The translations under genes were made by a program, and so were the position numbers. From positions 1,612,001-1,676,000 of the forward strand of contig NZ_FOZD01000001.1 of NCBI RefSeq assembly GCF_900113185.1: a DNA stretch of 64,000 nucleotides, in the 5' to 3' direction. Positions 7,598-25,939 of the stretch are shown here, in pieces. Numbering within the stretch: the stretch's first letter is position 1; every line of letters starts with the position of its first letter. The notes beneath the pieces are model-generated. The model worked only from the letters and a program-made list of their open reading frames with translations, was not told the origin of the DNA and did not search any database. The DNA is from Agromyces sp. CF514 (GTDB lineage: Bacteria > Actinomycetota > Actinomycetes > Actinomycetales > Microbacteriaceae).

Positions 7598-8796
7598 GCG
7601 GGGGTTCCTTCGGTCTCGGATGCCGCGGCATCCGTCGTCGCGTTCGTCTGGGTGTCGTCGTCCGCCGCCGCGGCGATCGCCCTGCGGAGCGCGTCGGCGG
7701 CGGCCTCGGGTGCGACGTCGCCGATCCAGGCGCCCTTGGCGGCCTCGGACCCGGCGAGGAACTTGAGCTTGTCGGCCGCACGGCGAGGGCTCGTGATCTG
7801 GAGCATCAGCCGCACGTCGTCGCGGTGCTCGTGCACGGGCGCCTGGTGCCAGGCCGCGATGTAGGGCGTGGGGGAGTCGTAGAGCCGGTCGATGCCGCGC
7901 AGCAGCTGGAGGTAGAGCCCGGCGAGCTCGTCGCGTTCTGCGAGCGTCGTGGCGGCGAAGTCGGGCACGTGGCGGTGGGGCAGCAGGTGCACCTCGATGG
8001 GCCAGCGCGCGGCGAACGGCACGAACGCGGTCCAGTGCTCGCCCGAGAGCAGCACGCGGGGGCCGTTGCGCTCGCGCTCGAGGATGTCGCCCATGAGCGT
8101 GGGGCCGTAGTCGTCGATCGCGGCGAGCAGCCGCTCGGTGCGCGGCGTGATGTAGGGGTAGGAGTAGATCTGGCCGTGCGGGTGCGGCAGGGTGACGCCG
8201 ATCTCGCGGCCGCGGTTCTCGAACGGGAACACCTCCTGCACGCCGGGCAGGGCCGAAAGCGCGGCGGTGCGGTGCGCCCACGCCTCGATCACCGTGCGCG
8301 CGCGCGAGCGCGAGAGCGAGCCGAACGAGCCCTCGTGCTCGGGGCTGAAGCACACGACCTCGCACCGGCCGATCGAGGTCTTCGTCCGCTCGAGGCCGAC
8401 GCGACGGAGGTCGGCGAGCGCCTCGGCGTCGGAGGCGCCGGGTTCGGCGAGCGCGGGACCGAACGAGGGGGAGCGGTTCTCGAACACTGCGACGTCGTAC
8501 AGGCTCGGGATCTCGGACGGGTTCTCGGGGGTCTGCGGCGCGAGCGGGTCGAGGTGCGCCGGCGGCAGCATGACGCGGTTCTGGCGTGCTGCGGCGATCG
8601 AGACCCATTCGCCGGTGAGCGGGTCCTGACGCATGTGCGCGTTCGCCGGGCGCGGGTCGAGCACGCGGGCGTCGACCGAGCGCTCGGCCGCGAGCACGGT
8701 GTCGGCGTCGTCGAAGTAGATGAGGTCGCGACCGTCGGCGAGCTGCGCCTGGCGTACCGCGATGGCGGGGTCGAAGACCGGTTCGGTGTCATGCAC
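7594..8796 (-). CDS. galT: Galactose-1-phosphate uridylyltransferase
   Basis: The 400-residue enzyme exchanges UMP between UDP-glucose and galactose-1-phosphate. The catalytic HPHGQ is at residues 205-209 with His207 as the expected nucleophile; the metal-site and HIT-fold motifs FENRGREIG, VHLLPHRHVPDF and WHQAPVH are in order. The C-terminal ~45 residues are an Ala/Thr/Asp-rich tail beyond the conserved fold. It starts at GTG 8796, six bases after a TAGGGT -10. It is first in the galT-galK operon and divergent from deoR across an 82-bp region holding the twin operator. Confidence 0.96.
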
Positions 8797-16776: not shown

Positions 16777-17658
16777 ATGACCGTCACCCTGCTGCTCGAG
16801 CCGCTGCCCGCCGACGCCCGCCTCGACGACCTCGCGTCGACGTTCCGCGAGGTGCCGGCGGATGCCCCCGCGCTGCGCGTCGGCGAACTCTCGACGCAGC
16901 GCGGCGACGGGGTGTTCGAGACCATCCAGGTCGTGAACGGCCACGCGCAGGAGGTCGGGCCGCACCTCGAGCGGCTGCGCAACTCGGCGGTCATCTGCGA
17001 GCTGCCCGCACCGAACCTGCCGCAGTGGCGCGCGGCCATCGCCGAGGCGGTCGCGCTGCTGCCCGACACCGGCGAGTTCGCGCTCAAGCTCGTGCTGAGC
17101 CGAGGCGTCGAGCACGGGCCGGCGCCGACCGCGTGGCTGCACGCCGCGCCCGCGGCCGATTTCAGCCGGCCGCGCGAGCAGGGCATCAGCGTCGTCACCC
17201 TCGACCGCGGGTACGCGCACGACGCGGCCGCGAACGCGCCCTGGCTGCTGCTCGGTGCGAAGACCCTGAGCTACGCCACGAACATGGCGGCGCTCCGCGA
17301 GGCGCACCGCCGCGGTGCCGACGACACGATCTTCGTCTCGTCCGACGGGTTCGTCATGGAGGGCCCGACATCGAGCGTGATCCTGCGCCACGGCGACGTC
17401 TACTCGACCCCCGCGCCATCTGGCGCGATCCTGCACGGCACGACGCAGATGAGCCTGTTCGACCACCTCGCCGAGACCGGCCGCCAGACCGAGTACCGCG
17501 ACATCCGCGCCGACGAGCTCGGCACGGCCGATGCGCTCTGGCTCGTGTCGAGCGTGCGCCTCGCCGCGGGGATCACCGAACTCGACGGTGCCGCGTTCCC
17601 CTACGACGCCGAGACGACGCGGGCGTTCAACGCCTACCTGCTCGAGCCGCGCGACTGA
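16777..17658 (+). CDS. pabC: Class IV PLP aminotransferase, aminodeoxychorismate lyase-like
   Basis: The 293-residue enzyme is a fold-type IV PLP protein. The Schiff-base lysine is Lys162 in LLLGAKTLSYATNM; RGDGVFETIQVVNGH (residues ~42-56) and SSDGFVMEGPTSSVIL are conserved substrate- and cofactor-loop motifs. Aminodeoxychorismate lyase releases pyruvate from aminodeoxychorismate to give p-aminobenzoate for folate; related branched-chain and D-amino acid aminotransferases share the fold. The sequence resembles the actinobacterial PabC-like group (Rv0812 type). Function is probable but not proven by motifs alone. ATG 16777 is supported by its adjacent -10 box. Confidence 0.82.
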   Translation: MTVTLLLEPLPADARLDDLASTFREVPADAPALRVGELSTQRGDGVFETIQVVNGHAQEVGPHLERLRNSAVICELPAPNLPQWRAAIAEAVALLPDTGEFALKLVLSRGVEHGPAPTAWLHAAPAADFSRPREQGISVVTLDRGYAHDAAANAPWLLLGAKTLSYATNMAALREAHRRGADDTIFVSSDGFVMEGPTSSVILRHGDVYSTPAPSGAILHGTTQMSLFDHLAETGRQTEYRDIRADELGTADALWLVSSVRLAAGITELDGAAFPYDAETTRAFNAYLLEPRD

Positions 17659-17721
17659 GCCCACCGCCCGAGGCCGACCCTTCGCGCGAGCCGGCGGGGG
17701 CTCGTTCGCGTCCCCTGAACG

Positions 17722-17746
17722 GGGAATTGCGATCGGGTGAATTCCC
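17722..17746. repeat. Inverted repeat gggaatt-N11-aattccc
   Basis: Seven-base arms (17722-17728 and 17740-17746) lie upstream of the luxR-type gene promoter and downstream of the pabC stop. It may be a weak hairpin or an operator. Confidence 0.4.
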
Positions 17747-17748
17747 TC

Positions 17749-17778
17749 TCGACTCTTGTTTGTAAACGTTGCTAACAT
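17749..17778 (+). promoter_or_regulatory. Promoter with LacI-type operator for the luxR-type gene
   Basis: A plausible sigma-70 promoter is TCGACT (17749-17754), 18-bp spacer, TAACAT (17773-17778). Overlapping spacer and -10 is a 21-bp partly symmetric site, 17757-17777, built round a central AACGTT (tgtttgtaaacgttgctaac...), matching the general form of LacI-family operators. A LacI repressor bound here would occlude the -10 box. Confidence 0.5.
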
Positions 17779-17811
17779 AACCGCACGCGATCAGTGAAGT
17801 GAGCGGAGGCG

Positions 17812-20343
17812 ATGCAACGCATGGACGAGATCCGCACCGGGCCACGACACCGATCGAGCGTCGAGGCGTTCGAGAACTCCAACACCATCGTCGAGTTGCT
17901 CGCCAGGCACCGGCTCGTCGTCGCCCCGCACGTCGCCTCGCGACTGGGGCTCGCGCTCGGCGGCGACGCCGACGCCATTATCGAGGTCACGACGCTGCTG
18001 CGCACCTCGCAGCGGCTCGGCCTGTCGGTGCTGCCCGACCCGTTGCCGCTCGTGCCTGCGATCGCCGCGGCGGTCGGGCCGCAGGGCGACATCCTCGCCG
18101 ACTGGGAGCGTCAGGCGCTCGTGATCGCCGCGGTCTGCACCGACGACCGCAGCGACGTGCTGCTCGCAGCGACCGGCCGGAGCATGTCCGAGCTCGTCGA
18201 CGGCCGGCTCAGCCGCCACCTGCTGCTCGTCGCGGGCCACTTCGCGTTCGCCGACCCCCGCATGCGCATCTGGGTGCACGCCGAGGCCTCCCTCGCCGAC
18301 CGCACCGCCGCCCACGAGCGGCTCGCCGGCGCCTATGTGGGGCTCGGCAACGACGAGCAGGCCGTGTGGCATCGTTCCCTCGCGACGCTCGAGGGTTCAC
18401 CCGACCTGGTCGCGCCCCTGCTCGAGATCGCGAGGCGAGCGGATGCCGCGGGCGAGGCCGAGCGCGCACACGCCGTCGCGCGGGAGGCCGAGAGCCACGC
18501 ATCGGGGGAGCAGGCGGCACTCGCGCGGCGCGTCGCCGGTCGGGCCGCCCTGCACGGCGGGTTCGTCGAGGATGCGGAATGCTGGCTCGGCGAGGTCCTG
18601 GCCCAGGGCGACGATCGCGGTCGGGCGAGCGTGCTCGGCGAGTCCCTCGTGGCCACGGCGCTGCTCCACGGCGACGTGGCCGAGGCCGAGCTCGATGCGC
18701 AGCTCGAGCAGTTCGAGCAGGCGGCAGGCACTCGCGGCGCGTCGCAGGCCTCGAGACATGCTCGTGCGCTCGTGCGCGCGATCGCCATCGCCGCCGGGCT
18801 GCTCGCCGAGCGAGGGGCGATGCAGCGGGCGGCGCGTCGCCTCGACCAGGCGGCGGCGCTCATCGACCGCCACGGACTCCCCGTCGACGATTGGGCGGTC
18901 GGGCACGCGTGGTACCGATTGTTCGCCGGCGGCGGACCCGACGCCGAGCCGTCCGGCGCCCCGGCTGTGCCCGCGGCTGCGGCCGCGGCCGGTCCAGGCC
19001 ACGCGACCTCGACCGGCGAGGAGTTGCCCGACGGTGCTCCGGTCGGCGGGCTTCGGGCCATCGCCATCGCCCTCGAACGCGGGCTCGGCGGCGATCCGTC
19101 CGGCGCCGTGCGGTGGCTCGGCGCACGCCGCACGGCGACTCCGATCGACGAGTGCGCCGCGGTCACGGGATTCGAGCGCTCCCCGCTCGTGCGTGCGGAG
19201 CGCGCGGTCGCGATCGCCCTGCTCGACCTCTGGGCCGGCGAGGTGAGTCGCGCCGCGAACGGATTGCGCCAGGCCGCCTGCGACCTGCCGATCGCCTTCG
19301 CGTTCGCCGGGCTCGGCGCGGCGCTCGCGCGCAGGCTCGAGCTCGTCGCGACCGGTGAGATCGGGCCGTGGGCGCGAGCGGTCGAGGCGACGCTCCCGCC
19401 GACGGCCACCTGCGTGCGACGCGAGGACCTCGTCGACCGGGCCGTCGAGGCGCACCTGCACGGTCGACGCTCCGAGGCCGAGACGCTCGTGGCGCTCGCC
19501 GACGAACGGGCGAGGAGCGGCTTCGGAGCCGGGTTGCACATCCCCGGACTCGATGCGGCCACCGAACACGCGGCGCACGACCATGGCGCGACCGAGCGCT
19601 CGGCACGGCCGTCGCCGGCGTCCGACGCCGATCGTCGCGGCATCGCGAGGCGATCGCCCGACGCGCGGCTCGCGAGCTGGCTGCGCCACCGCATGCGCGG
19701 CATCGGACGTGCCTGCTTCGATGCGGAGTACGCGGCGATCGCCGAACAGGCCCGCTCGATCCGGTCGCCGTACGAACGGGCACGAACCGAGCTCATGCTC
19801 GCGCGCGTGTGCGCGGCGTCCGGCGCCGTCGACGCAGCCGCACGCCACCTCGTCGCCGCTGAGCACCTCTTCGCCGACTGCGGCGCCACCGGATGGCTGC
19901 GCGCGGTGGCGGCCGAGCGGGTGGCGCAGATCGCCGCCCGGCGGGGCGCGGCGGCATCGGTCACCCTGGCCGGCGAGGCGCGTACGGCCACCGCCGAGGC
20001 GACGCGTCCGCAGGCCCCGTCGGTCGCCGGGGCGACCGGGCCGAGCGATGCCGGGGCGGTCGGGCGCGGGCCCGCGGCATCCGAAGACCATGCTCCGGGC
20101 GACATGCTCGACGAGTGCCGAGCCGCGTGGGCCGAGGTGCTCACCGAGCGCGAACTCGAGGTCGCGATGCTCGTCGTCGAGGGCTGCTCGAATCGCGAGG
20201 CGGCGTCGAGGCTGTACGTGTCGGTGCGCACGGTCGAGGTGCACGTCGGCCGCGTGTTCACGAAGCTCTCGGTGCACTCGCGGGTCGAGCTTGCGGTGCT
20301 CGCGCACCGGATGCACGGGCGCCTGTCGTCATCGCGTACGTAG
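17812..20343 (+). CDS. Large LuxR-family transcriptional regulator, probable chitinase regulator
   Basis: The 843-residue protein ends in a LuxR/NarL helix-turn-helix (residues ~778-835: TERELEVAMLVVEGCSNREAASRLYVSVRTVEVHVGRVFTKL). The long N-terminal part is alpha-helical and Ala/Arg-rich, like the TPR-type region of LAL regulators, but I find no Walker A P-loop. Residues ~380-405 are a low-complexity Ala/Pro/Gly linker. Two starts are possible: ATG 17812 has GGAGG only two bases upstream, ATG 17821 has it eleven bases upstream. It directly precedes two chitinase genes, each with a shared palindrome upstream, so control of chitin use is inferred. Its stop codon lies inside the first palindrome. 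Confidence 0.82.
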   Translation: MQRMDEIRTGPRHRSSVEAFENSNTIVELLARHRLVVAPHVASRLGLALGGDADAIIEVTTLLRTSQRLGLSVLPDPLPLVPAIAAAVGPQGDILADWERQALVIAAVCTDDRSDVLLAATGRSMSELVDGRLSRHLLLVAGHFAFADPRMRIWVHAEASLADRTAAHERLAGAYVGLGNDEQAVWHRSLATLEGSPDLVAPLLEIARRADAAGEAERAHAVAREAESHASGEQAALARRVAGRAALHGGFVEDAECWLGEVLAQGDDRGRASVLGESLVATALLHGDVAEAELDAQLEQFEQAAGTRGASQASRHARALVRAIAIAAGLLAERGAMQRAARRLDQAAALIDRHGLPVDDWAVGHAWYRLFAGGGPDAEPSGAPAVPAAAAAAGPGHATSTGEELPDGAPVGGLRAIAIALERGLGGDPSGAVRWLGARRTATPIDECAAVTGFERSPLVRAERAVAIALLDLWAGEVSRAANGLRQAACDLPIAFAFAGLGAALARRLELVATGEIGPWARAVEATLPPTATCVRREDLVDRAVEAHLHGRRSEAETLVALADERARSGFGAGLHIPGLDAATEHAAHDHGATERSARPSPASDADRRGIARRSPDARLASWLRHRMRGIGRACFDAEYAAIAEQARSIRSPYERARTELMLARVCAASGAVDAAARHLVAAEHLFADCGATGWLRAVAAERVAQIAARRGAAASVTLAGEARTATAEATRPQAPSVAGATGPSDAGAVGRGPAASEDHAPGDMLDECRAAWAEVLTERELEVAMLVVEGCSNREAASRLYVSVRTVEVHVGRVFTKLSVHSRVELAVLAHRMHGRLSSSRT

Positions 20344-20352
20344 TCCTGCGTA
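20336..20352. promoter_or_regulatory. Putative operator of chitinase gene 1 (shared palindrome, copy 1)
   Basis: gtacgtagtcctgcgta matches 16 of 17 bases of a site upstream of the second chitinase and sits in an imperfect palindrome (cgcgtacgtag-tc-ctgcgtatgcg). It overlaps the stop codon of the LuxR-type gene and ends 95 bases before the chitinase start. LuxR/NarL proteins bind such dyads as dimers, so the neighbouring regulator is the natural candidate. Confidence 0.6.
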
Positions 20353-20447
20353 TGCGTGGATCCGCTGATTCGCGAGACGCTGCGTCGCCGTAGCGTCGGG
20401 CTGCCCGCGTCCGTGCGGGAACACATCTCGATTCAGACAGGAACGAC

Positions 20448-22991
20448 ATGCGAACTCCCACACTCACGCGCGCGCGGCTCGTCGCCGCCGTCGCCGGGGT
20501 CGGGCTGCTGCTTGCGGCGTTGATCCCCGCGACGATCGCCAATGCCGCCGAGCCCTGCGCCCCGGCGTGGAACGCGGCGACCGCGTACTCCGGCGGCGCC
20601 AAGGCCTCGTACCAGGGCATCAACTACACCTCCAAGTGGTGGACCCAGAACAACGTGCCCGGCACCGAGCAGTGGGGCCCGTGGGCGAGCAACGGCGTGT
20701 GCGGCACGACCCCCGAGCCGACGCCGACCCCGACGCCGACCCCGACGCCCACGCCCGACCCCGGAACGGGCACGCCCTGGACCACGAACCCCGATGAGAA
20801 GTGCCGCCCCGACGGCCTCTACCAGACCCCCGGCGTCGACGTGCCGTACTGCTCGGTCTACGACGAGCAGGGTCGCGAGAAACTGCCGAACGGCCTGAAG
20901 AACCGCGTGATCGGCTACTTCACGAGTTGGCGCACCGGCGTGAACGGCGCACCCAGCTACCTCGCGAGCGACATCCCGTGGAAGAAGCTCAGCCACATCA
21001 ACTACGCGTTCGCGCACATCGACGCGCAGGGCAAGGTGTCGGTGAACCAGGCCGTCGCCGGCAACGCCGCGACCGACCTCACCTGGCCGGGCGTCGCGGG
21101 TGCCGAGATGGACCCGACGCTTCCCTACAAGGGGCACTTCAACCTGCTGACGAAGTACAAGAAGGCCAACCCGGGCGTGAAGGCGCTCGTCTCGGTCGGC
21201 GGCTGGGCCGAGACCGGCGGCTACTTCGACGCCGAGGGCGACCGCGTCGCCGACGGCGGCTTCTACACGATGACCGACTCGCAGGCCAAGATCGACGCCT
21301 TCGCCGACTCGGCGGTGCAGTTCATCCGCACCTACGGCTTCGAGGGCGTCGACATCGACTACGAGTACGCGAACTCGAACGGCAAGGCCGGCAGCCCCGA
21401 CGACTTCACGTTCTCCGAGCCGCGCCGGGCGAAGCTCTGGGCCGGGTACGAGTCGCTCATGAAGACCCTCCGCGAGAAGCTCGATCGCGCGGGCGCGGCC
21501 GACGGCGAGCACTACCTGCTCACCGTCGCGGCACCGGCATCCGGCTGGCTGCTGCGCGGAGCCGAGGTCTACCAGGTGACCCCGTACCTCGACTACGTCA
21601 ACATCATGAGCTACGACCTGCACGGTTCGTGGAACGACTACGTCGGCGGCAACGGCCCGCTCTTCGACGACGGCAACGACCCCGAGCTCGCCGCGGGCGG
21701 CGTCTACGGGGCCTACAACAACATCGGCTACCTCAACACCGACTGGGCGTACCACTACTTCCGCGGCGCGATGCCGGCCGGCCGCATCAACGTGGGCCTG
21801 CCGTTCTACACGCGAGGATGGGACGGCGTGCAGGGCGGCACCAACGGCCTCTCCGGCAAGGCGCCGCTCGCCGACCAGACGAAGTGCCCGCCCGGCACGG
21901 GACCGACGATCGGCGGCACGTCCAAGTGCGGCAACGGCGCGGTCGGCATCAACAACCTCTGGCACGACCTCGACAAGACCGGGGCGGAGGTCGGCGCCGG
22001 GGCGAATCCGATCTGGCACGCGCTCAACCTGCAGAAGGGCGTCGTGGGCGACTACGCGGCCTCGTACGGGGCGCCGACGTCGATCACGGGCACCTACACC
22101 CACCACTTCGACCAGACCACGAAGACCGAGTGGTGGTGGAACGCCACCACGAAGACCTTCCTCTCGGGCGACTCCGACCAGGCGGTCAGCGCGAAGGCCG
22201 ACTACATCGCCGACAACGGCATCGGCGGCGCGATGATCTGGGAGCTCGCGGGCGACTACGAGTACAACGCCCAGAAGGGCCAGTACGAGATGGGTTCGAC
22301 CCTCGTGTCGCTCCTGCACGACCGGTTCGCGGCCTCGCAGCCGTACGACGCGACGAAGGCCAACGTCGAGATGCCGACCAAGGCGATCGACCTGCAGGTG
22401 TCGTTCGGGGACTTCGCGCTCGGCGACAGCAACTACCCGATCAACCCGAAGGTCACGTTCACCAACAGGTCGAGGACCGCGATCCCCGCGGGTTCGACGA
22501 TCACGTTCGACACCGCCACGAGCGACACGGGCGCAATGGGCGAGCAGAACGGCTGGGGCATCACGAAGGTGTCGAGCGACCACACCGGGTCGAACGTCGG
22601 AGGCCTGAAGGGCGACTTCCACACGTACACGATCAAGGTGCCCTCGGGAGGGATTCCGGCGGGCGGCAGCGTCTTCACGAAGCTCTCGTGGCGACTGCCG
22701 ATGGCGCAGATCTCCAACCTCCGGGTGAAGGTCGGCACCGAGACGTTCGCCACGCTCTACGACCTGCCGAGGGGCGTCACGGTCGTCGAGCCCGTCGCGG
22801 GCGGTGGCGCCGGCGGCGGCACCGGCGGAGGCGGCACGGGCACGTGCGACGCGCCCGCGTGGAGCGCCACGGCGATCTACACCGGCGGTCAGCAGGTGTC
22901 GTACAACGGCTCCGAGTACACCGCGAAGTGGTGGACCCAGGGCAACACGCCGGGCACGAACGACGTGTGGGGCACCGCGACCGCCTGCTAG
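20448..22991 (+). CDS. Secreted GH18 chitinase with N- and C-terminal CBM5/12 modules
   Basis: This 847-residue exported enzyme hydrolyses chitin. Order: signal peptide (1 to ~33, ending ANA|AEP), CBM5/12 (37-85; AWNAATAYSGG, KWWTQ, QWGPW), a (Pro-Thr)n linker (~88-106), the GH18 barrel (~152-620) with SVGGW at 249-253 and catalytic FEGVDIDYEY at 298-307 (Glu306 as acid), then an immunoglobulin-like C-terminal chitinase domain (~645-780), a Gly-rich linker and a second CBM5/12 (AWSATAIYTGG, KWWTQ). The DxxDxDxE motif is slightly altered: Glu replaces the first Asp, and Tyr replaces the common Trp. It would act outside the cell. A palindrome shared with the next chitinase lies 95 bases upstream. 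Confidence 0.95.
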   Translation: MRTPTLTRARLVAAVAGVGLLLAALIPATIANAAEPCAPAWNAATAYSGGAKASYQGINYTSKWWTQNNVPGTEQWGPWASNGVCGTTPEPTPTPTPTPTPTPDPGTGTPWTTNPDEKCRPDGLYQTPGVDVPYCSVYDEQGREKLPNGLKNRVIGYFTSWRTGVNGAPSYLASDIPWKKLSHINYAFAHIDAQGKVSVNQAVAGNAATDLTWPGVAGAEMDPTLPYKGHFNLLTKYKKANPGVKALVSVGGWAETGGYFDAEGDRVADGGFYTMTDSQAKIDAFADSAVQFIRTYGFEGVDIDYEYANSNGKAGSPDDFTFSEPRRAKLWAGYESLMKTLREKLDRAGAADGEHYLLTVAAPASGWLLRGAEVYQVTPYLDYVNIMSYDLHGSWNDYVGGNGPLFDDGNDPELAAGGVYGAYNNIGYLNTDWAYHYFRGAMPAGRINVGLPFYTRGWDGVQGGTNGLSGKAPLADQTKCPPGTGPTIGGTSKCGNGAVGINNLWHDLDKTGAEVGAGANPIWHALNLQKGVVGDYAASYGAPTSITGTYTHHFDQTTKTEWWWNATTKTFLSGDSDQAVSAKADYIADNGIGGAMIWELAGDYEYNAQKGQYEMGSTLVSLLHDRFAASQPYDATKANVEMPTKAIDLQVSFGDFALGDSNYPINPKVTFTNRSRTAIPAGSTITFDTATSDTGAMGEQNGWGITKVSSDHTGSNVGGLKGDFHTYTIKVPSGGIPAGGSVFTKLSWRLPMAQISNLRVKVGTETFATLYDLPRGVTVVEPVAGGGAGGGTGGGGTGTCDAPAWSATAIYTGGQQVSYNGSEYTAKWWTQGNTPGTNDVWGTATAC

Positions 22992-23016
22992 CCGTCGCGA
23001 CCGCATCGCCGCAGTC

Positions 23017-23050
23017 GAGGCCGGGTACGTAGTCCTACGTACCCGGCCTC
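23017..23050. promoter_or_regulatory. Putative operator of chitinase gene 2 (perfect 16-bp-arm palindrome, copy 2)
   Basis: gaggccgggtacgtag (23017-23032) and ctacgtacccggcctc (23035-23050) are perfect inverted repeats separated by TC. The core gtacgtagtcctacgta (23025-23041) matches copy 1 upstream of chitinase 1 at 16 of 17 positions and ends 120 bases before the second chitinase start. No T-tract follows. It could double as a terminator for chitinase 1, but conservation of the core at both sites favours an operator. Confidence 0.65.
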
Positions 23051-23161
23051 TCGCATGCCCGGCCGAACATGTGGATCGTGCGGACGCCGCCACGCGGCAT
23101 CCGCTCGTAGCTTGACGACGAGGGGCGCGACCGCGCCCGTTCCTCCTCGACGAAGGACACC

Positions 23162-25030
23162 ATGCAGAGACAGAGAAGCACGCGATGGGGCCTGCGCACG
23201 GCGCTCGCCACCGTCGCCACCGGCGCACTCGTCGCCGGACTCGCCGCGGTCGGTTCGGCCCTGCCGGCCGCCGCCGCCCCCGAGCAGGCGCCCAGCGCCG
23301 TGAACGGCTACCGCAACGTCGGCTACTTCGCCCAGTGGGGCGTCTACGGGCGGGCCTTCCAGGCCAAGCAGCTCGAGACCTCCGGAACGGCCGCCGACCT
23401 CACGCACATCAACTACTCGTTCGGCAACATCAACTACCAGACGCTCGAGTGCTTCATCGCGAACAAGGCGCAGGGCACCGGGCCGAACGGCTCCGACGGC
23501 GCCGGCGACGCGTGGGCCGACTTCGGCATGGGCTACACCGCGGCCAACTCGGTCGCCGGCACCGCCGACACCTGGGACCAGCCGCTCGCCGGCTCGTTCA
23601 ACCAGCTCAAGCAGCTGAAGGCCAAGCACCCGAACCTCAAGGTCATGATCTCGCTCGGCGGGTGGACCTGGTCGAAGAACTTCTCGAAGGCCGCGGCGAC
23701 GGATGCCTCGCGCAAGAAGTTCGTGAAGAGCTGCGTCGACCTCTACCTCCGAGGCAACCTGCCGGTCATCGACGGGCGTGGCGGCACGGGCGCGGCAGCG
23801 GGCGTGTTCGACGGCATCGACATCGACTGGGAGTGGCCCGGATCGCAGAACGGCGAGGTGGGCAACTTCGTCGACGAGGTCAACGACAAGGCGAACTTCA
23901 CGGCACTGCTGAAGGAGTTCCGCACCCAGATCGACGCTCTGACCGCCGAGAACGGCCACCCGTACCAGCTGTCGGCGTTCCTGCCCGCGAACCCCGCGGA
24001 CATCGCCTCCGGCGGCTGGAACGACCCCGAGAAGTTCCGCTACCTCGACTACGGCAACATCCAGGGCTACGACCTGCACGGTGCGTGGAACCCGACGCTC
24101 GTCGGCCACCAGGCGAACCTCTTCGACGACCCGGCCGACAGCCGGGCGCCCGCGCAGCGGTTCAGCGTCGACAAGGCGGTCAAGGAGTACCTGAAGACCG
24201 GCATCGATCCCAAGCAGCTCGGCATCGGCCTCGCCGCATACGGTCGCGGCTGGCAGGGTGCGAAGTCCTCCAACGCCTGGACCTCGGCGACGGATGCCGC
24301 GCCCGGCACGTGGGAGAAGGGCAACGAGGACTACGACAAGCTGAAGACCCTCGGCACCGAGTACTACGACGCCGCCCTCGGCGCGGCCTGGCGCTTCGAC
24401 GGCAACCAGTGGTGGAGCTACGACAGCGTCAAGTCGACGACCCGCAAGTCGCAGTACATCGTCGACAACGGCCTCGGCGGCGGCATGTGGTGGGAGCTCG
24501 ACGGCGACCGCAACGGCGAGCTCGTCGGCACCCTCGCCGACAAGCTCCGCGCGGCGAAGAAGGGCCCTGCGACCGACCCCGTCGGAGGCACGACGCCCAC
24601 GACCCCGCCGACGACGCCCCCGACCACGCCGCCCACGACGCCGCCCACCGGCGGCTGCACGGCGGCGGCCTGGACCGCCTCGGGCATCTACACCGGTGGC
24701 CAGAAGGTGTCGTACAACGGCTCGGAGTACTCGGCCAAGTGGTGGACGCAGGGCGAGACGCCCGGCTCCGCCGCGGTCTGGGCGCTCGTCGGGGCGTGCA
24801 CCACGACGCCGCCGACCACCCCGCCCACCACGCCGCCGACCACGCCGCCCACGACCCCGCCGACTGATCCCGGCAGCTGCACGGCCGCGGCCTGGGCTGC
24901 GGCGACCGCCTACAGCGGCGGCGCGGTCGTGAGCTACCAGGGCTCGACCTACAAGGCCAAGTGGTGGACGCAGAACAACGTCCCCGGCGCCGAGCAGTGG
25001 GGCCCGTGGGAGAAGCAGGGCGCCTGCTGA
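23162..25030 (+). CDS. Secreted GH18 chitinase with two C-terminal CBM5/12 modules
   Basis: The 622-residue exported enzyme has a signal peptide (to about residue 39, LPAAAA), a GH18 barrel (~50-465) with SLGGWTW (164-170) and the complete catalytic motif FDGIDIDWEW (216-225, Glu224), a Thr/Pro repeat linker, CBM5/12 number one (TAAAWTASGIYTGG...KWWTQGETPG), another Thr/Pro linker and CBM5/12 number two (AAAWAAATAYSGG...QWGPW). It lacks the extra C-terminal domain of chitinase 1 and its barrel is a different GH18 subgroup, so the two enzymes probably cut chitin in different ways. It ends in a shared bidirectional terminator with pstB. Confidence 0.95.
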   Translation: MQRQRSTRWGLRTALATVATGALVAGLAAVGSALPAAAAPEQAPSAVNGYRNVGYFAQWGVYGRAFQAKQLETSGTAADLTHINYSFGNINYQTLECFIANKAQGTGPNGSDGAGDAWADFGMGYTAANSVAGTADTWDQPLAGSFNQLKQLKAKHPNLKVMISLGGWTWSKNFSKAAATDASRKKFVKSCVDLYLRGNLPVIDGRGGTGAAAGVFDGIDIDWEWPGSQNGEVGNFVDEVNDKANFTALLKEFRTQIDALTAENGHPYQLSAFLPANPADIASGGWNDPEKFRYLDYGNIQGYDLHGAWNPTLVGHQANLFDDPADSRAPAQRFSVDKAVKEYLKTGIDPKQLGIGLAAYGRGWQGAKSSNAWTSATDAAPGTWEKGNEDYDKLKTLGTEYYDAALGAAWRFDGNQWWSYDSVKSTTRKSQYIVDNGLGGGMWWELDGDRNGELVGTLADKLRAAKKGPATDPVGGTTPTTPPTTPPTTPPTTPPTGGCTAAAWTASGIYTGGQKVSYNGSEYSAKWWTQGETPGSAAVWALVGACTTTPPTTPPTTPPTTPPTTPPTDPGSCTAAAWAAATAYSGGAVVSYQGSTYKAKWWTQNNVPGAEQWGPWEKQGAC

Positions 25031-25088
25031 ACCGCGGGTGACGACGGTCGGGAGGCGCGAATGCCTCCCGGCCGACGACCGGAACGGC

Positions 25089-25123
25089 GGATGCCCCGGA
25101 GCGAAGTTCGCTCCGGGGCATCC
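25089..25123. terminator. Bidirectional terminator between chitinase 2 and pstB
   Basis: Perfect 16-bp stem (25089-25104 with 25108-25123) with a 3-base loop, in the convergent space between the two genes. A second weaker hairpin gggaggc/gcctccc lies at 25050-25069. There is no long T-run, as is usual in this genome. Confidence 0.8.
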
Positions 25124-25159
25124 GTCGTTCGTGCGAGCCGCGTCAGCCGCGGCATCCGA

Positions 25160-25939
25160 TCATCCGAAGCGGCCGGAGACGTAGTCCTCGGTGGCCTTCA
25201 CCGACGGGTTCGAGAACATCGTGGTGGTGTCGTCGTACTCGATGAGCTTGCCGGGCTTGCCGGTGCCGGCGATGTTGAAGAACGCCGTCTTGTCGCTCAC
25301 GCGCGAGGCCTGCTGCATGTTGTGGGTCACGATCACGATCGTGTACTCGGTCTTGAGCTCTTCGATCAGGTCTTCGATGGCGAGCGTCGAGATCGGGTCG
25401 AGGGCCGAGCACGGCTCGTCCATGAGGATGACCTCCGGCGATACGGCGATGGTGCGTGCGATGCAGAGTCGCTGCTGCTGCCCGCCCGAGAGGCCGGAGC
25501 CCGGTCGGTCGAGGCGGTCCTTCACCTCGTTCCAGAGGTTCGCGCCGAGCAGCGACTTCTCGACGAGGTCGTCGGCGTCGGTCTTCGACATGCGCTTGTT
25601 GTTCAGGCGCACCCCCGCGAGCACGTTCTCCTTGATGGACATGGTCGGGAACGGGTTCGGCCGCTGAAACACCATGCCGACCTGGCGGCGCACGAGCACC
25701 GGGTCGACCGAGGAGTCGTAGAGGTTGTTGCCGTCGATGAGCACCTCGCCCTGCACGCGTGCACCGGGGATGACCTCGTGCATGCGGTTGAGCGTGCGGA
25801 GGAACGTCGACTTGCCGCAGCCCGACGGCCCGATGAAGGCCGTCACGGTGCGGGGCTCGATCTCGAGCGAGACGCCCTCGACCGCGAGGAAACTGCTGTA
25901 GTAGACGTTCAGGTCGTTGACTTCGATGCGCTTGGACAC
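25160..25939 (-). CDS. pstB: Phosphate ABC transporter ATP-binding protein PstB
   Basis: The 259-residue ATPase powers high-affinity phosphate uptake by PstSCAB. Walker [10 protein letters not shown] is at residues 37-45, the signature [12 protein letters not shown] and Walker [14 protein letters not shown] follow, and [16 protein letters not shown] and the C-terminal [16 protein letters not shown] are specific to PstB. It starts with GTG 25939 and is the last gene of pstSCAB on the minus strand, with 58 bases between it and pstA. Regulation is probably through the PHO box upstream of pstS. Confidence 0.97.

Follow-up and report, generated by a model that had tools for sequence, protein, structure and literature searches.

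In the genome of Agromyces sp. CF514, a gene encoding an 843-amino-acid LuxR-type protein is followed by two chitinase genes, and a short palindrome precedes each of these chitinase genes. The locus lies in a 64,000-nucleotide stretch of contig NZ_FOZD01000001.1 (positions 1,612,001 to 1,676,000 of the forward strand, assembly GCF_900113185.1), hereafter called the window, to which the coordinates below refer. From sequence comparison, we consider it probable that the palindrome is a NarL/FixJ-like operator of 7-2-7 layout recognized by the adjacent LuxR-type protein, that it acts together with a second box to activate the chitinase promoters, and that the regulon is the cassette itself. The sites, their conservation, place and spacing, and their restriction to the locus were computed, and they support a sequence-only reading of this DNA, which had predicted a local chitin regulon with a LuxR-linked operator.

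Two palindromes upstream of the chitinase genes

The three genes are co-oriented on the + strand: the luxR-type gene (P0001) spans positions 17812–20343, chitinase 1 (P0002; GH18, ChiC domain, CBM5/12) positions 20448–22991 and chitinase 2 (P0003; GH18, CBM5/12 modules) positions 23162–25030. Site 1, TACGTAGTCCTGCGTA (20337–20352), holds the luxR stop codon (TAG, 20341–20343), and site 2, TACGTAGTCCTACGTA (23026–23041), forms the tip of a hairpin; neither palindrome is assigned to a strand. Written as 17-mers, GTACGTAGTCCTGCGTA at 20336–20352 and GTACGTAGTCCTACGTA at 23025–23041 are identical at 16 of 17 positions and end 95 and 120 bases before the ATG codons at 20448 and 23162, respectively. 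The sequence-only reading had described these positions, distances and identities, the stop codon inside site 1 and 16 perfect pairs at site 2 (dyad 23017–23050), and all were confirmed by direct reading of the letters. Site 2 consists of two inverted heptamers 2 bp apart (TACGTAG-TC-CTACGTA); at site 1, one pair of this dyad is mismatched.

A search of the window with TACGTAGTCCTRCGTA at up to three mismatches returned just these two sites, as four strand-matches; shuffled sequences gave a mean of 0.14, and none of 100 shuffles attained four. The occurrence of two sites in the window exceeds chance. Across the 4.3-Mb genome, at up to two mismatches, the same two sites were again the only ones found (two matches on the forward strand and one on the reverse, which is site 2 read a second time; the reversed-pattern control gave two), at which sensitivity no random intergenic site appeared. 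On the 5′ side of luxR, within positions 17740–17790, the sequence TGTTTGTAAACGTTGCTAACA resembles, by eye, an imperfect operator-type dyad.

The flanks of the two cores had been taken as simply different, a view that was not borne out, as each core is followed by a box and a -10-like hexamer of the same kind. This second box, TGTGGn(4-6)C[G/T]GA, which the sequence-only reading had overlooked, lies 3′ of the palindrome, generally about 30 bp away, and is followed by a -10-like TANNNT. On the + strand, the site 1 box is GTGGATCCGCTGATTCG (20356–20372) and the site 2 box is GTGGATCGTGCGGACG (23071–23086); the predicted -10 hexamers are TAGCGT (20391–20396), 35 nt from the box start and kept in position in relatives, and TAGCTT (23108–23113), 37 nt from the box start. 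Two box types can be told apart, the longer GTGGATCGTGCGGACG of site 2 and a shorter relative of the site 1 type, such as GTGGATGTGCTGATTCG. In all 24 Agromyces sites TANNNT starts 35–37 nt from the box start, and box and hexamer together are found by strict pattern in 27 of 36 loci. The gap between core and box measures 1–3 nt at 13 sites of the site 1 kind and 25–31 nt at 10 of the site 2 kind; in genome G073 it is 29 nt. Outside Agromyces, the palindrome ends 28–31 bp before the box in all eight loci with both strict patterns, a distance like that at Agromyces site 2, and the tight arrangement at site 1 seems to be the derived one. The box by itself was rejected as a genome-wide marker because it gave 44 matches at up to two mismatches, one of them exact, against nine for the control.

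Conservation at luxR-chitinase loci

Within Agromyces, the core was found at up to one mismatch in 19 of 60 genomes (28 matches, against three for the reversed control), with exact copies in A. lapidis, A. allii, A. terreus and A. salentinus. Twenty-four of these matches, in 15 genomes, lie at the luxR-chitinase locus, and the genomes with a core at this locus are precisely the 15 of 60 that carry an ortholog of chitinase 2 (at least 68% identity). When the first 25 Agromyces genomes were searched, a luxR ortholog (E < 1e-60) was found in G000, G012, G014, G018 and G021 only, and these are the five that have the locus core. The core overlaps the luxR 3′ end in nine of the 15 loci; in G073, where chitinase 1 is absent from the fetched region, a single core lies between luxR and chitinase 2. 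The core is thus kept in orthologous chitinase promoters and accompanies the luxR locus, as expected from the sequence-only reading.

A wider regulon including a third chitinase was rejected: in 14 core-bearing genomes with this paralog (43–50% identical), the 600 bp before its aligned start contain neither the core (best 6–8 mismatches) nor the second box (best 5–7 mismatches). The absence of these elements there, and of further sites in the genome, fits a regulon that is local. The paralog promoter contains another dyad-like element around TAAGGACTCCTT (L163, that is G000:C1:1956000-1960500, L164, L172 and L174), and in luxR-linked chitinase promoters of family f9 a similar AAG..TCCTTACTTTT is found at the predicted -10 (L185, L226 and L234–L236); the two are perhaps another chitin-related site.

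The comparison was extended to the order with the first 323 residues of the LuxR-type protein as query. Homologues turned up in 31 of 396 genomes; 25 of these genomes are not Agromyces, and the region of each was compared together with the 15 Agromyces loci (40 regions). In 21 of the 25 outside loci luxR is followed by at least one related chitinase gene, and no chitinase was found near the homologue in the fetched regions of G179, G804, G328 and G680. The frame TACGN8CGTA lies behind luxR in 15/15 Agromyces loci and in 15 of the 21 outside luxR-chitinase loci, and in none of the regions of the four homologues without chitinases. Its inner bases vary outside Agromyces (for example TACGGGATCACCCGTA, TACGTATTTCCACGTA and TACGTGAAGTCACGTA), and the TACG and CGTA ends survive at cross-family loci whose chitinases are mostly 56–65% identical. 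Over the 40 regions, 43 of 46 such 16-mers fall within the 4.3% of bases that lie behind luxR or between the chitinases, an enrichment with a binomial value of 1e-55 that ignores relatedness and is not to be read literally. A copy between the chitinases is present in 13 of 14 Agromyces loci and in none of the 18 outside loci with at least two chitinases. One 16-mer with this frame, TACGGGTTTCCCCGTA (L219 of G703, 8477–8492), lies 87 bp behind a chitinase 1-type gene rather than behind luxR.

The locus restriction was also seen in a blind scan of the 396 genomes with the composite pattern TACGN8CGTA-N(24-33)-TGTGG-N(4-6)-CKGA, which gave 14 matches in 14 genomes, one each, against four for the reversed control. 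Twelve of the 14 lie at luxR-chitinase loci, as judged by position or tblastn (G473, G489, G766, G713, G556, G570, G505, G518, G042, G060, G000 and G073); of the other two, the 3-kb locus of G030 has no match to P0001–P0003, and the match in G587 lies near a LuxR-type open reading frame (ORF) but is oriented in the opposite direction. This result fits a local regulon, weaker sites and the site 1 spacing falling outside the pattern, and runs counter to a scatter over random intergenic sites. The bare core, by comparison, occurs at chance level outside Agromyces (388 genomes, three matches against eight for the reversed control), two of the three matches lying on luxR stop codons.

The candidate regulator and the competing explanations

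The regulator had been described as a LuxR/NarL-type protein. The first half of this description stands: a C-terminal GerE helix-turn-helix (HTH) at residues 776–831 is the sole domain over the Pfam cut-off. However, P0001 is not a NarL-type response regulator, since Pfam gives the GerE domain alone, with no receiver domain at E up to 0.001. Matches to NCBIfam and to solved structures are likewise confined to the HTH, which resembles the DNA-binding domains of NarL, LiaR/VraR-like regulators and FixJ. The Walker A pattern GxxxxGK[ST] is absent from the sequence. A weak local match to the middle of a LuxR-type protein of Actinoplanes aureus (L060; 27% over 106 aa, pairwise E 0.008) makes kinship with the LAL family a guess. 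The recognition helix SVRTVEVH is present in 33 of 36 loci (TIEVH in G021, VEVY in G643 and G543), and this near-constant helix fits the constant TACG and CGTA ends.

The mechanism that we propose is as follows. A signal from chitin breakdown would reach the LuxR-type protein, two molecules of which would bind the 16-bp palindrome through their C-terminal HTH domains; the bound protein, together with the box near -35, would then recruit RNA polymerase and turn the chitinase promoter on. The regulon would be a cassette made of the luxR-type gene and the chitinase genes behind it, to which Agromyces adds an extra copy of the palindrome before chitinase 2, at the tip of the terminator-like hairpin that follows chitinase 1. 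Computational support is restricted to the DNA side of this mechanism; we infer the identity of the binding protein, its dimeric state, activation over repression and the chitin-derived nature of the signal. Such an arrangement would represent a separate, well-bounded module of regulator, operator and enzymes, for which contact bases can be predicted in four families of the order (f1, f9, f10 and, as a near copy, f6).

Several observations weigh against this proposal. The clearest counter-case is G032, which has the same cassette, the SVRTVEVH helix, the box and a -10-like TACTTT at 36 nt, and no palindrome. The exact frame is also missing from G663, G703, G790 and G517, G701 has only the near copy TACGTAGTCCCACCTA, with the stop codon inside, and site 2 is degenerate in G047, G060, G068 and G021. 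The two different palindrome-box distances of Agromyces sites 1 and 2 are ill-suited to one rigid geometry. Moreover, because luxR, palindrome and chitinases form one block, their co-occurrence alone cannot name the binding protein, and the second box is an equally good candidate for contact by the activator.

An alternative built on this last point holds that the second box is the site of the adjacent LuxR-type protein and that the palindrome either serves a different LuxR-type protein or is an auxiliary site. The box is retained in G032, G790 and G517 despite the missing palindrome, it sits near -35 with constant spacing to the -10-like hexamer in every Agromyces site, and the site 1 box of G000 matches, by eye, the direct repeat TnnAAnnGCGGAnTC proposed for TpdR (PMC6099782) at 8 of 10 specified positions. 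However, it is the palindrome that keeps its place behind luxR in most outside loci and is absent beside the chitinase-less homologues, and palindromes of 7-2-7 layout are typical of GerE-type HTH proteins (PMC4549865). We regard this alternative as unlikely, though worth keeping in mind.

The LuxR-type protein might also bind the palindrome in order to repress, or to adjust the transcription of its own gene. This would agree with the overlap of the site with the luxR 3′ end in Agromyces, and the direction of control is not readable from sequence. However, box and -10-like hexamer are both downstream of the sites and are not covered by them, and no TACGN8CGTA 16-mer was found upstream of luxR in the 40 fetched regions. 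We give this possibility little credence.

The palindrome might instead be only a terminator or an mRNA 3′ hairpin of the preceding gene. Directly behind chitinase 1, on the + strand, the 16-pair hairpin at 23017–23050 has a folding z of -7.1 and is terminator-like. Over ten species its outer arms differ yet mostly stay paired, with 17 cells changed on both sides (a count attained in 0 of 500 shuffles) in six pairs (72 of 500 shuffles attain six), while the inner 16 bp are nearly invariant; structure outside and sequence inside both seem to be kept at this site. The core is retained in G018 too, where most of the arm sequence does not pair. The hairpin is probably a terminator, though it lacks the T run of an intrinsic terminator and was not listed by a terminator scan of positions 17500–25200; it may be a terminator of another type. 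Strong hairpins are also present behind luxR in G643, G543 and G489. However, in a comparison of folding behind luxR that leaves out G701, z ranged from -7.6 to +0.3 relative to mononucleotide shuffles and was about 0 in G505, G518, G042, G043, G047, G053 and G021, with the TACG and CGTA ends kept throughout. A constant core amid changing arms, and ends that outlast the folding, led us to reject the hairpin as the whole explanation, which we judge very improbable; the sequence-only reading had named a hairpin-only role as one outcome that would speak against its proposal. Finally, shared descent or a recent functionless duplication is hardly credible as the source of the likeness. The copies in the 15 Agromyces genomes are indeed related, and only this genus has the site between the chitinases; even so, the flanks have diverged around an unchanged core and the frame survives between families.

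Known operators and cores behind other luxR-type genes

NarL operators have the 7-2-7 consensus TACCCCTAAAGGGGTA (PMC4549865) and, like the sites described here, consist of inverted heptamers 2 bp apart that start with TAC, end with GTA and are bound by a GerE-type HTH dimer; they differ in their inner bases, and NarL is a phosphorylated response regulator, whereas P0001 has no Pfam receiver and its binding is predicted. FixJ sites share the half-site TACGTAG and the GerE-type HTH: GTACGTAG is found in the fixK promoter of R. palustris (PMC13327599) and TTACGTAG in an oligonucleotide used with phospho-FixJ (PMC11164954). Unlike the present case, FixJ belongs to two-component oxygen regulation in proteobacteria, with no chitinases, and the 16-bp palindrome does not occur in the FixJ passages.

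TpdR of Rhodococcus jostii is a 788-aa LAL-type LuxR activator of pyrazine degradation with a proposed binding site (PMC6099782). It resembles our case as a large actinobacterial LuxR-type protein with a proposed box near -35, comparable to the second box, and inverted repeats nearby, and differs in having Walker A and B motifs, the first of which P0001 lacks. Chitinolysis in Streptomyces is described as controlled by DasR, ChiS/ChiR, CsnR and others (PMC6097792). ChiS/ChiR of S. coelicolor likewise places an actinobacterial chitinase gene under a GerE/NarL-type regulator (PMC6097792, PMC9739842); unlike P0001, it is a two-component system, and binding of regulators of this type to the chitinase repeats could not be demonstrated according to the same review (PMC6097792). 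The DasR dre site, A(G/C)TGGTCTAGACCA(G/C)T, and the CsnR box, AGGAAANTTTCCT, are also palindromic operators of actinobacterial chitin or chitosan genes; their consensus and regulator families are different (PMC6097792), and comparison by eye of the core with these strings as quoted there gave no match.

A search of literature text found neither the three forms of the core nor the site 2 box string, and titles and abstract openings on LuxR-chitinase operators in Agromyces, Microbacteriaceae and Cellulosimicrobium yielded nothing resembling the module. The sequence type is not wholly new because the TACGTAG half-site has been reported for FixJ. What appears new is a predicted GerE-type palindromic operator in a conserved chitinase module, the kind of operator being already known.

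The core was also encountered at the 3′ ends of unrelated luxR-type genes, in other genera and phyla as well, where it covers the stop codon or lies next to it. Four of the 28 Agromyces matches lie off the locus, and their reading as chance matches in ORFs was dropped, as three of them (G041, G019 and G007) span the stop codon of a luxR-type gene other than P0001; the fourth (L096) is not beside luxR. The same situation is seen in G110, from another genus, and in G082 (L182, 1787–7381), where an ATPase-LuxR gene of 975 aa has an exact site 1 core over its stop codon and precedes a gene for an 882-aa PPDK/PEP-utilizer-like protein. The core is not a feature of luxR genes in general, a possibility rejected with a control set of 25 luxR-type genes of relatives, only one of which has it at the 3′ end (L032, the G007 case).

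Exact TACGTAGTCCTACGTA occurs in 48 stretches of an 84,980-species collection. Five of the 44 non-Agromyces stretches (L037, L040, L054, L060 and L064) have the stop codon of a LuxR-type gene no more than 60 bp away; a GerE domain lies within 2.3 kb in 16 of the 44, including five related Massilia records that lower the number of independent cases, and none lies so near in the other 28. Overall, the 210 kb lying no more than 3 kb from a core contained 18 GerE domains (with one domain of L065 counted twice), and the 123 kb farther out contained none.

A broader hypothesis, which we put forward tentatively and hold to be possible rather than likely, is that of an order-wide one-component chitin switch, in which a large LuxR-type protein devoid of the usual ATPase would sense a chitin product and bind a 7-2-7 palindrome located where its own gene ends, an arrangement that would keep regulator and target promoter together as they move. 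In several phyla, unrelated luxR-type genes would have acquired the same TACGTAG palindrome at their 3′ ends again and again, in many cases across the stop codon. Such a recurrence would provide a practical rule for finding the operators of uncharacterised large LuxR regulators.

Two further groups of cores were noted. In G019 (L178), G110 (L181) and A. aureus (L060), the core lies over the stop codon of a large luxR-type gene. The product of this gene in G019 has 751 aa and includes an ATPase-like stretch that scores below the Pfam cut-off, and in G019 and A. aureus the next gene encodes an alpha/beta hydrolase (by sequence in the latter); luxR-type gene, core and hydrolase may form another module with this layout, in at least two families. 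In Massilia, five stretches (L035, L038, L047, L049 and L057) have exact cores with common flanks about 2 kb from a gene encoding a GerE-domain protein (mostly about 211 aa), and these are possibly a NarL-type system using the same operator.

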